Assembly: GCA_016935195.1 (NCBI GenBank)
Contig: JAFGRL010000089.1
Span: forward strand, 1 to 64,000
Direction of reading: 5' to 3'
DNA: 64,000 nt
Origin: Sedimentisphaerales bacterium
GTDB taxonomy: Bacteria > Planctomycetota > Phycisphaerae > Sedimentisphaerales > Anaerobacaceae
The translations under genes were made by a program, and so were the position numbers. The notes under the pieces are model-generated. The model did no database searches and was not told where the DNA came from. It was given only the letters and a program-made list of their open reading frames with translations. Shown piece after piece: positions 4,546 to 51,565 of this stretch (within the stretch, counting starts at the first letter, position 1; each line of letters begins with the position of its first letter).

Positions 4546-4675
4546 GTTCGGTTTAGAGACCTGTTGCATCCGGTGCCATGATATTTTATCTGCTCATCTC
4601 TGGCAGTTAAGGGCTTGAACTTAAAGGAAAGTTTGTTTGTCTGCTGATATGCTTTTTTGACGGATAAGAGGATAA

Positions 4676-23487: not shown

Positions 23488-23900
23488 AGAGAGTGGGTCG
23501 GACGGCCGCTTCGTACCTGATAGGTGCGGGGAGGAAAGTCCGAGCAGGACAGGGCACGGTGATGGCTAACAGCCACCGAGGGCAACCTCCGGGATAGTGC
23601 CACAGAAAATACACAGCCGATGACCCGTACCTTTATTAACTAAAGGCTACGAGTACAGGCAATGGTGAAATGGTGTGGTAAGAGCGCACCGCATCGTCGG
23701 CAACGGCGACGGCACGGCAAACCCCACCGCCTGCAAGACCAAGTATGCTGTTGCTCGGCCCGGGCAATAACAGCGGGTAGGTCGCTTGCCGCACCTATTT
23801 GGTGCGGCAGAGCCAACTGGTAACAGTTGGTCGAGATAAATGGCCGTCATCCTGTAACATTTTGCAGGAAACAGAACTCGGCTTACAGACCCACTCTCTT
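23488..23900 (+). ncRNA. rnpB: RNase P RNA, bacterial class A
   Basis: This is the catalytic RNA that removes tRNA 5' leaders. The terminal P1 stem pairs 23487-23499 with 23888-23900. The universal cores are all present: GAGGAAAGTCCGAGC near the 5' end, CACAGAAAATA, GGTAAGAGCGCACCG in the middle, AGATAAATGGCCGTC, and ACAGAACTCGGCTTACAG near the 3' end. A run of six T after the P1 stem acts as terminator. The length, about 413 nt, is normal. A diverged second copy of its last 60 bases lies 1,600 bp downstream. Confidence 0.96.
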
Positions 23901-23906
23901 TTTTAA
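23844..23906 (+). repeat. Direct repeat, copy 1 (3' end of rnpB)
   Basis: This 63-bp segment ends just past the T run of rnpB and is repeated at 25444-25506 with 56 of 63 bases identical. All seven differences are transitions. The layout, with a gene's 3' end duplicated around a foreign-looking segment, resembles attL/attR of an element integrated at a small RNA gene. This copy completes the functional RNA. Confidence 0.75.
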
Positions 23907-24319
23907 CTGCTCTGTTGAAAAGATGTCATTTCGACCAAACCTGTCCTGAGCAAAGTCGAAGGCGGAAGCAATCTAACACCCTTATAGACACATTTAAACC
24001 AGACTATTCACGAGCACCCACCAAGATTCATAGCCATTAAAGAAGCAAGTGTTATAGGTCTGATGCCTGATGTAAAAAGAGCTATTAATAATTATCTGTT
24101 ACTTGGCAAAGCCTGCCAGCCTTATAAAGCTTAAAAAACCTTCTATATCTTTTGCCGATTGAACCAAACCATCAAGAGCTTGGTTTTTCTCAGTAGCAGG
24201 GTAAGGACAGGTATTATATCCAAAAGAGTATTTGCTCTTGATACTTTAAAGTCCAAAGAGTCTTTCTTTATCTGCTCAACGTCTCTGTTCCAACAGACTC
24301 ACTTTTTCTCTAATCGCAC
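23907..24319. other. Gene-free stretch after rnpB
   Basis: No intact gene is seen. At about 23930-23975 there is a 'catttcgacc...gtcctgagcaaagtcgaagg...aagcaatct' phrase of REP type. A plus-strand open frame of 47 codons without a start (about 23978-24132, ending CQPYKA) could be the tail of a decayed gene, and a start-less minus-strand frame lies at about 24155-24300. Neither is convincing. Confidence 0.4.
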
Positions 24320-25318
24320 TTAATCTAGAATAGACCACTCCAAAAACGGCGGGGAGATTTCAGTAATTATATCTTCTGGTCTGAACTTCTTACCATCATC
24401 TATCGGCTTAAATTGAACATCCACTTTTATGTATGGACATTCCTTATAAACATATCGTCTATTTGTCCTCGTACACACCCCACCTTCAGTAGTAAAAAGT
24501 TCAAGAAGGTCGGCGCGCGTAGCTCCCGGCTTGATTGATTGGCTGCGTCTGAGACATTCGCTCACCCATTCAGTATGATTGACAACAGAGGGTTTTATCT
24601 CACTCAGGTTACGATTGTCGATTATCGGTGTATCGGCAGGCAAATTAATACGATTTAAATCTACAATCTTCCCATCGACCACAAGCTCGATATCAGTTCG
24701 TGCACGATACATAAATCCTTTTGGTTTCTTTGCTTCAACTGGCATCCAAGGGTCACCATCCGACATCCAAGGGTCACCATCTACCGATATGGTTATATAT
24801 TCAGGCCATTGACCATATACCGGTACCCAAGCCATACCATCTTCCGAAATTGTTACATATTCGGGTAACTCTCCAGTTGATGACTTGATTGAATCCGGCC
24901 AGGGTGGTACCGGTATGAGCACCTTGCCGCCGGGCCGACTAGTGCCATGAGCGGGCCATACATGGCTGTATATCCGGACCACGGGTCTTTCATTATTGAA
25001 TAGCCTGCCTTTTTTGAAGGGCTTTTCAATGCTGCGAAGTCTTATTGGTGCCCCTTTATCTTTTAGTTTCAAAACTATTGGCCAAATCCTCTCAAAATCT
25101 TCGCGGTTCCCGAAATCTATTTCATATACGCTTTCTTGATTACCCATAGCCAGCTCAATCGTTCGTGCCTTTTGTCGATATGATTCAAGCCCTTCCGGCC
25201 AACTCTCAGGCCATCTTCCTTCTTCGTGTGTAATAACCAATCCTGAACCTGCTTTGGGAAAAAGAAGAACAGTAATGATGAATAAAATAAAGAACGTTTT
25301 GTATAATCGCGCAACCAT
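24320..25318 (-). CDS. Secreted hypothetical protein
   Basis: The 332-residue protein has an N-terminal signal peptide (hydrophobic FFILFIITVLLFP). The middle is Trp/Pro-rich with an internal duplication of DGDPWM, caused by a 21-bp tandem repeat at about 24742-24783. The last 90 residues carry IKPGATRADLLELFTTEGG and YVYKECPYIKVDVQF, a small domain recalling outer-membrane assembly proteins of the SmpA/OmlA fold (guess). It is the only intact gene between the two copies of the rnpB 3' end, so it may be cargo of an integrated element. No partner gene is adjacent. Confidence 0.75.
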   Translation of the reverse strand: MVARLYKTFFILFIITVLLFPKAGSGLVITHEEGRWPESWPEGLESYRQKARTIELAMGNQESVYEIDFGNREDFERIWPIVLKLKDKGAPIRLRSIEKPFKKGRLFNNERPVVRIYSHVWPAHGTSRPGGKVLIPVPPWPDSIKSSTGELPEYVTISEDGMAWVPVYGQWPEYITISVDGDPWMSDGDPWMPVEAKKPKGFMYRARTDIELVVDGKIVDLNRINLPADTPIIDNRNLSEIKPSVVNHTEWVSECLRRSQSIKPGATRADLLELFTTEGGVCTRTNRRYVYKECPYIKVDVQFKPIDDGKKFRPEDIITEISPPFLEWSILD

Positions 25319-25443
25319 ATTTTACCCCCTTAATGTAGCCCGGAATTTCCCATATCAGCGCTTAAAAAACACAATTTTGACCTTTCACCATATATTCAGA
25401 CGCTGTAAAACGCATAACATTACAACAATTACTCGTTTTTTCA

Positions 25444-25506
25444 CCGTCATCCTATAATATTTCACAGGAAACAGAACCCGGCTTACAGGCCCACCCTCTT
25501 TTTTAA
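25444..25506 (+). pseudogene. Duplicate of the rnpB 3' end (copy 2)
   Basis: This 63-bp segment matches the rnpB 3' end at 23844-23906 (56/63 identical, transitions only), including CAGGAAACAGAACCCGGCTT and the terminal-stem and T-run region. Nothing upstream of 25444 resembles the rest of RNase P RNA, so it cannot be a functional gene. It is best explained as the displaced original 3' end after an insertion, or as a segmental duplication. Confidence 0.8.
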
Positions 25507-25547: not shown

Positions 25548-26300
25548 CTAAAGTTGGGCTTGTTCCTGGCGCTTTTGGAAGTACCTGACAAATGAGCCTA
25601 ACATCACTTTGACTTTGACGGAGCCATTCTCAAGGAGCATTTGAATTCTGCCTTTATCAAGGCTGATATGCTCAAATTCGAGCCCCTCCGGATTGCTCAA
25701 ACGCTCTGCCTGTGCAGGAGAGACTTCAAGTTTGACTATGACAGCCTCGATGGCCTGATTTATCATCATTCCGCCGACGCCGAGCATTTTGTTGTCCGGG
25801 CTTACTTGGTCGATATCTTTGCGAACATTTTCAAGCACTTGCTTAAGTATCGCAATGCGACGGGCATTTTCACCTGCAAAAGGTTTTTCAAGTAATTCCT
25901 TCTCCAGAAGCATCCGACAGTCATAGGTAACACCTTCCCATGGTTCTGCAAGTAAAATTTTCGGCTTTTCATTTACGATAAGCAAATGTTTACGGCTGGC
26001 CGTGAGCAGGTTCTCATCAAAAGCGACGAGTATAAACCAGGTATGGTATGTTTGCCTTTTCTGACCTAAAGAGGCAATGACGCTTTTACTTTGACTAATA
26101 AGCTCATCTTCGGAGGTTTTGATGACAGCGAGAACATCTGCGCTGGTACTGTCGTTTAGCTTTATGTTGTTATAATTTTCCCAAAGCTGTCGGTAATAAG
26201 GACGTTTGTCTGGCATAGCAAAGTCAACCACTGCGCAGCCGGTTAGTACGCAAACAAGGACCGAAGATAAAATTATCGACCGGTAGAATTGAATTAACAT
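25548..26300 (-). CDS. Hypothetical lipoprotein
   Basis: The 250-residue protein has a signal peptide and the lipobox VLTGC (Cys22). The rest is predicted mixed alpha/beta with a long helical stretch (about 130-180). It has no motif I recognise: it includes AEPWEGVTYDCRMLLEKELL and a C-terminal KVKVMLGSFVRYFQKRQEQ. It lies 40 bp downstream of ilvC on the same strand and could be cotranscribed, though a functional link is not evident. Confidence 0.75.
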   Translation of the reverse strand: MLIQFYRSIILSSVLVCVLTGCAVVDFAMPDKRPYYRQLWENYNNIKLNDSTSADVLAVIKTSEDELISQSKSVIASLGQKRQTYHTWFILVAFDENLLTASRKHLLIVNEKPKILLAEPWEGVTYDCRMLLEKELLEKPFAGENARRIAILKQVLENVRKDIDQVSPDNKMLGVGGMMINQAIEAVIVKLEVSPAQAERLSNPEGLEFEHISLDKGRIQMLLENGSVKVKVMLGSFVRYFQKRQEQAQL

Positions 26301-26340: not shown

Positions 26341-27345
26341 TCAGACTTCTTTTGTCTCTATCCACTTCATCATCTTACGCAATTTTTTGCCGACCTGCTC
26401 GAGCTGACAGTTATGGTCTTTTTCGTAGAGTTGATTAAACTTTTTCAGGCCGGTTTTATATTCCTGCATCCACTCTTTGGCAAATTCGCCTGAGGTAATT
26501 TCGGCCAGTATCTTTTTCATCTCGGCTTTTGTCTGCTCATTAATGATTCTCGGCCCACGCGTAAGGTCGCCGTATTCGGCAGTGTTCGATATGCTGTACC
26601 TCATATAGCTCATCCCACCCTGGTACATAAGGTCGACTATTAATTTGACCTCGTGCATGCACTCGAAGTACGCTATTTCAGGTTGGTATCCAGCCTCAAC
26701 CAATGTTTCGAAACCTGCCTTAATAAGTGACGTAAGTCCGCCGCAAAGGACACACTGCTCGCCGAACAGGTCAGTCTCAGTTTCCTCTTTGAAGGTCGTT
26801 TCTATAACACCTGCTCTGGCGCCGCCAATACCGTTGGCCCAGGCAAGGGCAATTGATTTGGCATCGCCGGTTGCATCCCTTTGCACGGCCACAAGACAAG
26901 GTATGCCGCCCCCTTTTTCGAACTCACTGCGAAGGAGATGTCCCGGTCCTTTGGGTGCTATCATCACAACGTTAATATCATCAGGCGGAACAATGTATTT
27001 GAAATGGATATTAAAGCCGTGACAAAAGCCGAGAGCCTGGCCTGCCTTTAGACTGGAACTAATTTCATCCTGATAAATCTTAGCTGCGATTTCATCTGGT
27101 AGCGTAACAATAACGAGACTTGCATCTTCACAGGCACTTTTAATGCTGCCTGGTGAAAAGCCGTGTTCCTTCGCCAGTTTATAATTGTCGGTGCCCTCCA
27201 GCTCTGCGACAGCGACATTAATTCCGCTATCGCGGAGATTGAGACTGTGGGCATGACCTTGACTGCCATAGCCGATTACGGCTACTTTCCTGCCCTTGAG
27301 AGGCTCTATCGGGGCATCTTTTTCATAATACATTTTCAGTTCCAT
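26341..27345 (-). CDS. ilvC: Ketol-acid reductoisomerase (class I, NADP)
   Basis: The protein has 334 residues and catalyses the second step of valine/isoleucine synthesis: Mg-dependent alkyl shift and reduction of acetolactate or acetohydroxybutyrate. The Rossmann motif GYGSQGHAHSLNLRDSG, metal-binding DLFGEQCVLCGG and EAGYQPEIAYFECMHE are visible. The length is typical of the short class I enzyme. AGGAGG precedes the start. ilvB, ilvN and leuA are not nearby, which is unusual for bacteria where they cluster. Confidence 0.95.
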   Translation of the reverse strand: MELKMYYEKDAPIEPLKGRKVAVIGYGSQGHAHSLNLRDSGINVAVAELEGTDNYKLAKEHGFSPGSIKSACEDASLVIVTLPDEIAAKIYQDEISSSLKAGQALGFCHGFNIHFKYIVPPDDINVVMIAPKGPGHLLRSEFEKGGGIPCLVAVQRDATGDAKSIALAWANGIGGARAGVIETTFKEETETDLFGEQCVLCGGLTSLIKAGFETLVEAGYQPEIAYFECMHEVKLIVDLMYQGGMSYMRYSISNTAEYGDLTRGPRIINEQTKAEMKKILAEITSGEFAKEWMQEYKTGLKKFNQLYEKDHNCQLEQVGKKLRKMMKWIETKEV

Positions 27346-50626: not shown

Positions 50627-51565
50627 ATGCTCTCAAGACAGATCAAATCCCTCGAGCAGAAACTGCTGCCCGTGCCTGTGGGCAGAAATGTCAAGGACTT
50701 CCTTGACTACCTTTCATTTGAGGCAGGCCTTAGCAACAACACTATCCTTGGATACGGAAGAGACCTAAAGGGCTTCTTAGGCTACTGCAAATCCAAACAA
50801 ATAAAGTCATTACAACAGATCAAGCCAGATATTATTCGGGATTACCTGTGCTTTATTGCCTCTGGGCAGCAAAGCGAAAATTCGATGAAACGCTGTGTTG
50901 CTGCTATAAGAATGTTTTTGAGATTTGCTAAAATTACGAATCTTGTAGAGGATGATTTTACCACGATACTTGAAGGGCCGAAGGTTTGGCAAAGGCTCCC
51001 AGCCATTTGCAGCAAAGAGAAGGTTTTAGAACTTCTTAATGTCCCCTCGCCGAAAGAGCCTTATTTCTTGCGCGACAGAGCTATTCTGGAGATGCTTTAT
51101 GCAACTGGGCTTCGGGCTGGGGAAATGGCTGGACTGAAGCTGAACGATTTAAATCTTGATATTGGGTACTTGCGTTGTCTGGGCAAAGGAAACAGAGAAC
51201 GTGTAATACCGATAGGTAATTCTGCCATTGCGGCAGTAGCGGATTATATAAGGTTGTTACGGCCAAAACTTATCAAGCCCTTCAGCGGCGATTTTTTATT
51301 GCTTTCTCGAACAGGCCGACCTATCAGCCGTATTGAAATCTGGAGATTGGTCAAGAAATATGCCCTTCGTGCGGGAATGCCGAAGAATGTGACAGCTCAT
51401 ACACTAAGGCACTGTTTTGCAACGCACCTTTTAAGCGGTGGTGCCGATTTGCGAAGCATTCAGGAGATGCTTGGCCATGTGGATATAGGTACTACTCAGA
51501 TATACACCCACGTAGATCAGCAGCGCTTGCGAAAAATACATAAGAAGTTTCATCCCAGACCATAA
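50627..51565 (+). CDS. Tyrosine recombinase XerC/XerD-like
   Basis: The 312-residue protein has the full catalytic set of chromosomal Xer recombinases: Arg163 (TGLRAGE), Lys187 (GKGNRE), His258 and Arg261 (HTLRHCFATHLL), His284 (LGHVDIGTTQIYTHV) and the nucleophile Tyr293. The N-terminal SAM-like domain is complete. The length and lack of neighbouring mobile genes favour a housekeeping dimer-resolving enzyme over a phage integrase. XerD is slightly more likely than XerC, but I cannot decide from sequence alone. Confidence 0.9.
   Translation: MLSRQIKSLEQKLLPVPVGRNVKDFLDYLSFEAGLSNNTILGYGRDLKGFLGYCKSKQIKSLQQIKPDIIRDYLCFIASGQQSENSMKRCVAAIRMFLRFAKITNLVEDDFTTILEGPKVWQRLPAICSKEKVLELLNVPSPKEPYFLRDRAILEMLYATGLRAGEMAGLKLNDLNLDIGYLRCLGKGNRERVIPIGNSAIAAVADYIRLLRPKLIKPFSGDFLLLSRTGRPISRIEIWRLVKKYALRAGMPKNVTAHTLRHCFATHLLSGGADLRSIQEMLGHVDIGTTQIYTHVDQQRLRKIHKKFHPRP

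Follow-up and report, generated by a model that had tools for sequence, protein, structure and literature searches.

The window described here, a 64,000-nt stretch from a planctomycete genome of 2.86 Mb, raises the question of how the 3' end of rnpB, the gene for RNase P RNA, came to stand a second time downstream of the gene, with some 1.5 kb of other DNA between the two copies. The copies form a direct repeat with identity at 56 of 63 positions (89%) and an offset of 1,600 bp, and all seven mismatches are transitions, a pattern that is mildly unusual (p ~0.06) given the share of transitions among the relatives. The initial annotation had reported the coordinates, length, offset, identity and all-transition pattern of this repeat, and each was reproduced, as was its statement that the downstream copy has no rnpB body, Rfam finding a single RNase P RNA in the window, at 23490-23901, and none at 25444-25506. 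A chance repeat is ruled out, the next best ungapped 63-mer match elsewhere in the window being 35/63. So is a widespread repeat unrelated to rnpB, which the same annotation had raised as an argument against insertion, as the only high-scoring sites for the rnpB 3' end in the genome are the two copies themselves. An assembly artefact is unlikely because the copies differ at seven of their 63 positions.

The state of the two copies indicates which one belongs to the working gene (Table 1). The folding energy of the short hairpin within the repeat is -6.5 kcal/mol in copy 1 versus 0 in copy 2, and this hairpin is a possible recombinase-binding dyad. The P1 helix is fully formed in copy 1, whereas in copy 2 one of its pairs would be broken and another a wobble. 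This decay fits a fragment that has been without function since its displacement, and derivation of copy 2 from another functional rnpB is unlikely because its changes break pairs rather than compensate for one another. The segment that would have been the target, from ACAGAACYCGGCTTAYAG through the end of the gene, ranks among the most conserved parts of rnpB.

Table 1. Features of the rnpB locus in the window (positions are those of the 64,000-nt stretch).
Feature	Position	Strand	Remarks
rnpB, RNase P RNA class A, complete; 3' end is the proposed target	23490..23901	+	Rfam RF00010, 277 bits, full model 1-367
Repeat copy 1, functional rnpB 3' end and T run, putative attL	23844..23906	+	No difference from sister genome G004 over the last 36 nt
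7-bp hairpin CCTGTAA-CATT-TTGCAGG in the repeat	23851..23868	+	Paired in copy 1, lost in copy 2
Inserted DNA between the repeats, ~1.54 kb, absent at this site in relatives	23907..25443	.	Gap comparison with 34 relatives
REP-like dispersed repeat in the insert	23924..23990	+	85% to a site elsewhere in this genome
Second short dispersed repeat in the insert, TAATTATCTGTTACTTGGCAAAGCYTGYCNGCCTTATAA	24089..24128	+	Two further genome copies, 91-93%
332-aa predicted exported protein, planctomycete family; cargo or hitch-hiker	24320..25318	-	Single open frame of the insert
Repeat copy 2, displaced and decayed rnpB 3' end, putative attR	25444..25506	+	Lipoprotein stop codon ~42 bp away
Conserved lipoprotein gene, native right neighbour of rnpB in the family	25548..26300	-	
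ilvC, ketol-acid reductoisomerase, next native neighbour	26341..27345	-	

Comparison with related genomes shows that the insert is a gain at the site between rnpB and the lipoprotein gene. Gene order in the family to which the window belongs is nadB, rnpB and then, convergent to these, the lipoprotein gene and ilvC, and the distance from the end of rnpB to the lipoprotein stop codon is 11-253 bp in 28 of 34 family relatives, with a median of 106 bp over all 34 and a value of 78 bp in the sister genome G004. In the window this gap is 1,647 bp, which without the 1,600-bp unit would be 47 bp; the downstream copy, which abuts the native right flank, therefore stands where the end of rnpB formerly lay. 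The initial annotation had proposed that insertion would be favoured by an empty site carrying the unit once and directly adjoining the lipoprotein and ilvC side, and that a 1.6-kb interval kept by all relatives would speak against it; it is the empty site that the relatives display. Five family members (G048, G050, G021, G014 and G051) have insertions downstream of rnpB that lack any repeat, so this spot also accepts DNA by other routes. Two variations of the locus elsewhere in the family may be mentioned separately. In genome G042 (L080) the orientation of rnpB relative to the lipoprotein/ilvC block is reversed, and the 5' end of rnpB adjoins the lipoprotein gene. Several members have an rnpB of 500-710 bp (L076 in G003, L095 in G043, L102 in G010, L100 in G035, L085 in G040 and L101 in G015), and at least five (G003, G043, G010, G035 and G040) carry a long unrelated sequence just 5' of the conserved rnpB 3' end.

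The content of the insert is modest, and here too the initial annotation, which had described one gene and REP-like sequence inside the repeat pair and no integrase, is borne out. Searches with Pfam and PHROGs detected neither an integrase nor an excisionase nor any phage gene in the insert, and an integrase remnant sought in 23907-24330 was not found. The 332-aa protein matches no Pfam, PHROGs or NCBIfam family and has no known domain. Its relatives occur only in related planctomycetes, in some of the family at other loci, with none in the sister genome G004; the nearest named ones are on contigs labelled Planctomycetota and Phycisphaerales, and with this distribution a role as a mobile-element gene is unsupported. 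Because the insert holds two dispersed repeats of its own genome, it is either a long-standing resident or came from a close relative. The TAATTATCTGTTACTTGGCAAAGCYTGYCNGCCTTATAA repeat has at least three genomic copies, at window positions 24089-24128, at L169 ~1525-1565 and at L170 ~1573-1608. The genome yields 24 tyrosine-recombinase matches, any of which could act in trans. In the window itself, 26 kb from the insert, a tyrosine recombinase domain scoring 145 bits against PF00589 occupies 51014-51523 on the + strand.

The explanation towards which we lean, with modest confidence, is a gene-restoring integration at rnpB by an element of the tyrosine-recombinase type that has since eroded. 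tRNA and tmRNA genes are well-known integrase targets, and the reuse of an essential RNA gene obliges an integrase to reconstitute it without error. At this locus, the element would have integrated into the rnpB 3' end, bringing its own copy of that end and so keeping the essential RNase P RNA intact, and the last 62 bases of the host's own rnpB would have ended up beyond the insert, where, having no further role, they would have decayed. Recombination would most likely have been by a tyrosine integrase acting at the rnpB 3' end as others do in tRNA and tmRNA genes, and the element would later have been eroded to ~1.5 kb with one exported-protein gene. That an integrase acted here and has since disappeared, and where exactly the crossover fell, are points that we infer; the 11% decay suggests an old event, which may fit the loss of the integrase.

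We scanned IMG/VR contigs for the conserved core of the rnpB 3' end, and these provide examples of integrases at the same gene end. The fullest is the 41.7-kb contig IMGVR_UViG_3300035388_000034 (G516). One of its ends truncates rnpB, leaving the 3' part (147 bits), and 31 bp from this lies an integrase of 399 aa, called by eye from its catalytic motifs rather than by a Pfam scan; on the strand of rnpB, at a distance of 39.5 kb, the 3' end recurs with 39 matches over 40 bases. On sequence, the contig is arranged like an integrated prophage whose target is rnpB. Seven further contigs show the adjacency alone, and their integrases were scanned with Pfam, those of L124 and L129 falling below the cut-off. 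In L189 the integrase lies 30 bp from the 3' end of a complete rnpB, with phage genes behind it, and L155 starts inside the 3' part of rnpB with the integrase 58 bp away; the L155 integrase has relatives in L189 and in L179, the latter relative lying beside a core that lacks the rnpB body. Similar body-less cores are found 142-154 bp from a tyrosine integrase in L124 and L129 (with lysis-type genes on the other side in L124), at ~120 bp in L160, and beside a tyrosine integrase in L123. In the INPHARED phage records, matches to the L124 core never extended beyond 17 bp. Together these contigs show that phage integrases elsewhere use the rnpB 3' end as an attachment site. The initial annotation had suggested that rnpB is an integration target in the manner of tRNA and tmRNA genes, and this general idea is supported by the viral contigs that have integrases at rnpB 3' ends, including the two copies in G516. 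The second planctomycete case described below speaks, with the empty site, for insertion. An integrase for the window insertion itself is proposed rather than demonstrated, as neither planctomycete insert holds an integrase or phage gene. With its two copies and no integrase, the window falls outside the group of prophages that target rnpB.

The second case is that of genome G024. A sequence model of the rnpB end applied to 89 family genomes recovers two copies only in the window's genome and in G024, and an order-wide search finds a second copy in the same two of the 128 genomes with a match; no intact island borne by rnpB was found in the family, and neither of these two cases is one. In G024, rnpB occupies L081 3233-3618 and the second copy of its 3' end, 36 bp of identical sequence, lies at 4575-4610. 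The 0.95-kb insert differs from that in the window, has a DUF1559/pseudopilin-like gene (a Pfam match below the cut-off), and is without integrase, excisionase or phage gene. The left arm of the second copy mismatches G024's own rnpB and, together with the start of the core, is a 27-bp exact match to rnpB of G014, a member of another genus; this foreign arm points to transferred DNA rather than to a local duplication. A search for the donor did not find one. A further 1.36 kb separates the second copy from the lipoprotein gene, which implies more than one event at this locus, and the region of an ATPase/DUF4325 regulator gene with a PHROG match, at L081 4894-5928 (+), is probably a second insertion. 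The G024 case is independent of that in the window.

Several other models are to be weighed against integrase-mediated integration. The main rival is a Campbell-type insertion, in which a circle or other transferred DNA carrying the rnpB 3' end of a relative recombines with the chromosomal gene through RecA or illegitimately, with no integrase involved. The host-type genes of both inserts and their lack of integrases agree with this, as does the foreign left arm in G024, and the 62-bp repeat in the window takes in more of rnpB than do the phage cores of 26-40 bp. However, 62 bp at most is little homology for RecA, the same gene's 3' end has been struck in two lineages, as integrases do, and phage integrases use the rnpB 3' end elsewhere, so that we regard a Campbell-type event as possible but rather unlikely. 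A model in which the rnpB end was duplicated locally, as a segment, and unrelated DNA entered between the copies on a separate occasion would explain why copy 2 is closest to its own genome's rnpB, including the variable hairpin, and draws on a spot that takes insertions in several relatives, but it needs two events that leave a copy exactly at the native right flank and does not account for the foreign left arm in G024; we consider it improbable. The initial annotation had named a simple duplication of this kind as its alternative. Most doubtful of all is a small non-autonomous cassette mobilised by an integrase in trans, with the 1.5-kb unit and its rnpB-like end being the complete element. 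Both inserts are indeed small (0.95 and 1.54 kb) with one gene each, convergent to rnpB, and the genome does not want for tyrosine recombinases, yet no gene family is common to the two inserts, and the order yielded no other unit of this sort with an rnpB end.

Integration at rnpB by an integrase, to which we return, is argued for by the empty site, the position and decay of the displaced copy, the G024 case and the phage contigs, and on these we hold it to be somewhat the more probable account of the locus. Against it stand the lack of an integrase, excisionase or phage gene in both planctomycete inserts, the restriction of second copies to two of 128 genomes in the order, neither of them with an intact island, the small size of both inserts and their host-type genes, unlike phage cargo, and the evidence for more than one event in G024 and for repeat-free insertions at rnpB in the family. 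The window has the 3'-end direct repeat, the intact regenerated gene with P1 paired and the empty site that characterise integrative elements at stable RNA genes; since the integrase is missing, we file the insert as a probable remnant rather than as a member of that class.

The footprint is of a known kind, and the unusual part is the target gene. rnpB is a near-universal ribozyme gene and offers a target conserved in most bacteria. As a target it is a new place to seek islands and prophages missed by finders restricted to tRNA and tmRNA genes, and a source of new integrase/attachment-site pairs, and the decay of displaced rnpB ends offers a means of estimating how old an insertion is. When an island integrates at an RNA gene, as described for Islander (PMC4383910), it makes the interrupted gene whole again and its far end is marked by the fragment that was displaced, and the window shares with such islands and prophages the use of a stable RNA gene 3' end as target and the regenerated gene and displaced fragment at the two ends. 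It differs in that Islander covers only tRNA and tmRNA genes, whereas the target here is rnpB and the insert is ~1.5 kb without an integrase. The TIGER/Islander database (PMC12424338) maps island ends precisely against reference genomes, requires an integrase, excludes elements below 2 kb, and recognises tRNA/tmRNA, protein-coding and intergenic site classes; under the integrase and size rules, a scar such as that in the window would go unlisted. The prophage in G516 resembles the window in that rnpB and a copy of its 3' end bracket the intervening DNA, but has 39.5 kb between the copies and a tyrosine integrase close to rnpB. The literature that we searched, which did not extend to the 2020 integration-site survey (PMC7192596), nowhere described rnpB as an attachment site, and rnpB is likely to be a newly recognised integration target.

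Two further observations concern the viral contigs. Four of them, of 31-190 kb (L122, L125, L126 and L128), combine tRNA gene arrays with an rnpB core, which in L122, L125 and L126 is part of a full RNase P RNA gene and in L128 has no Rfam match; contigs of this type suggest phage-encoded RNase P RNA. Many predicted proviral contigs (L142, L144, L145, L146, L151, L154, L157 and L158) have an end that lies no more than ~200 bp from one and the same rnpB gene, which suggests that one host group has a shared prophage or island boundary close to rnpB.
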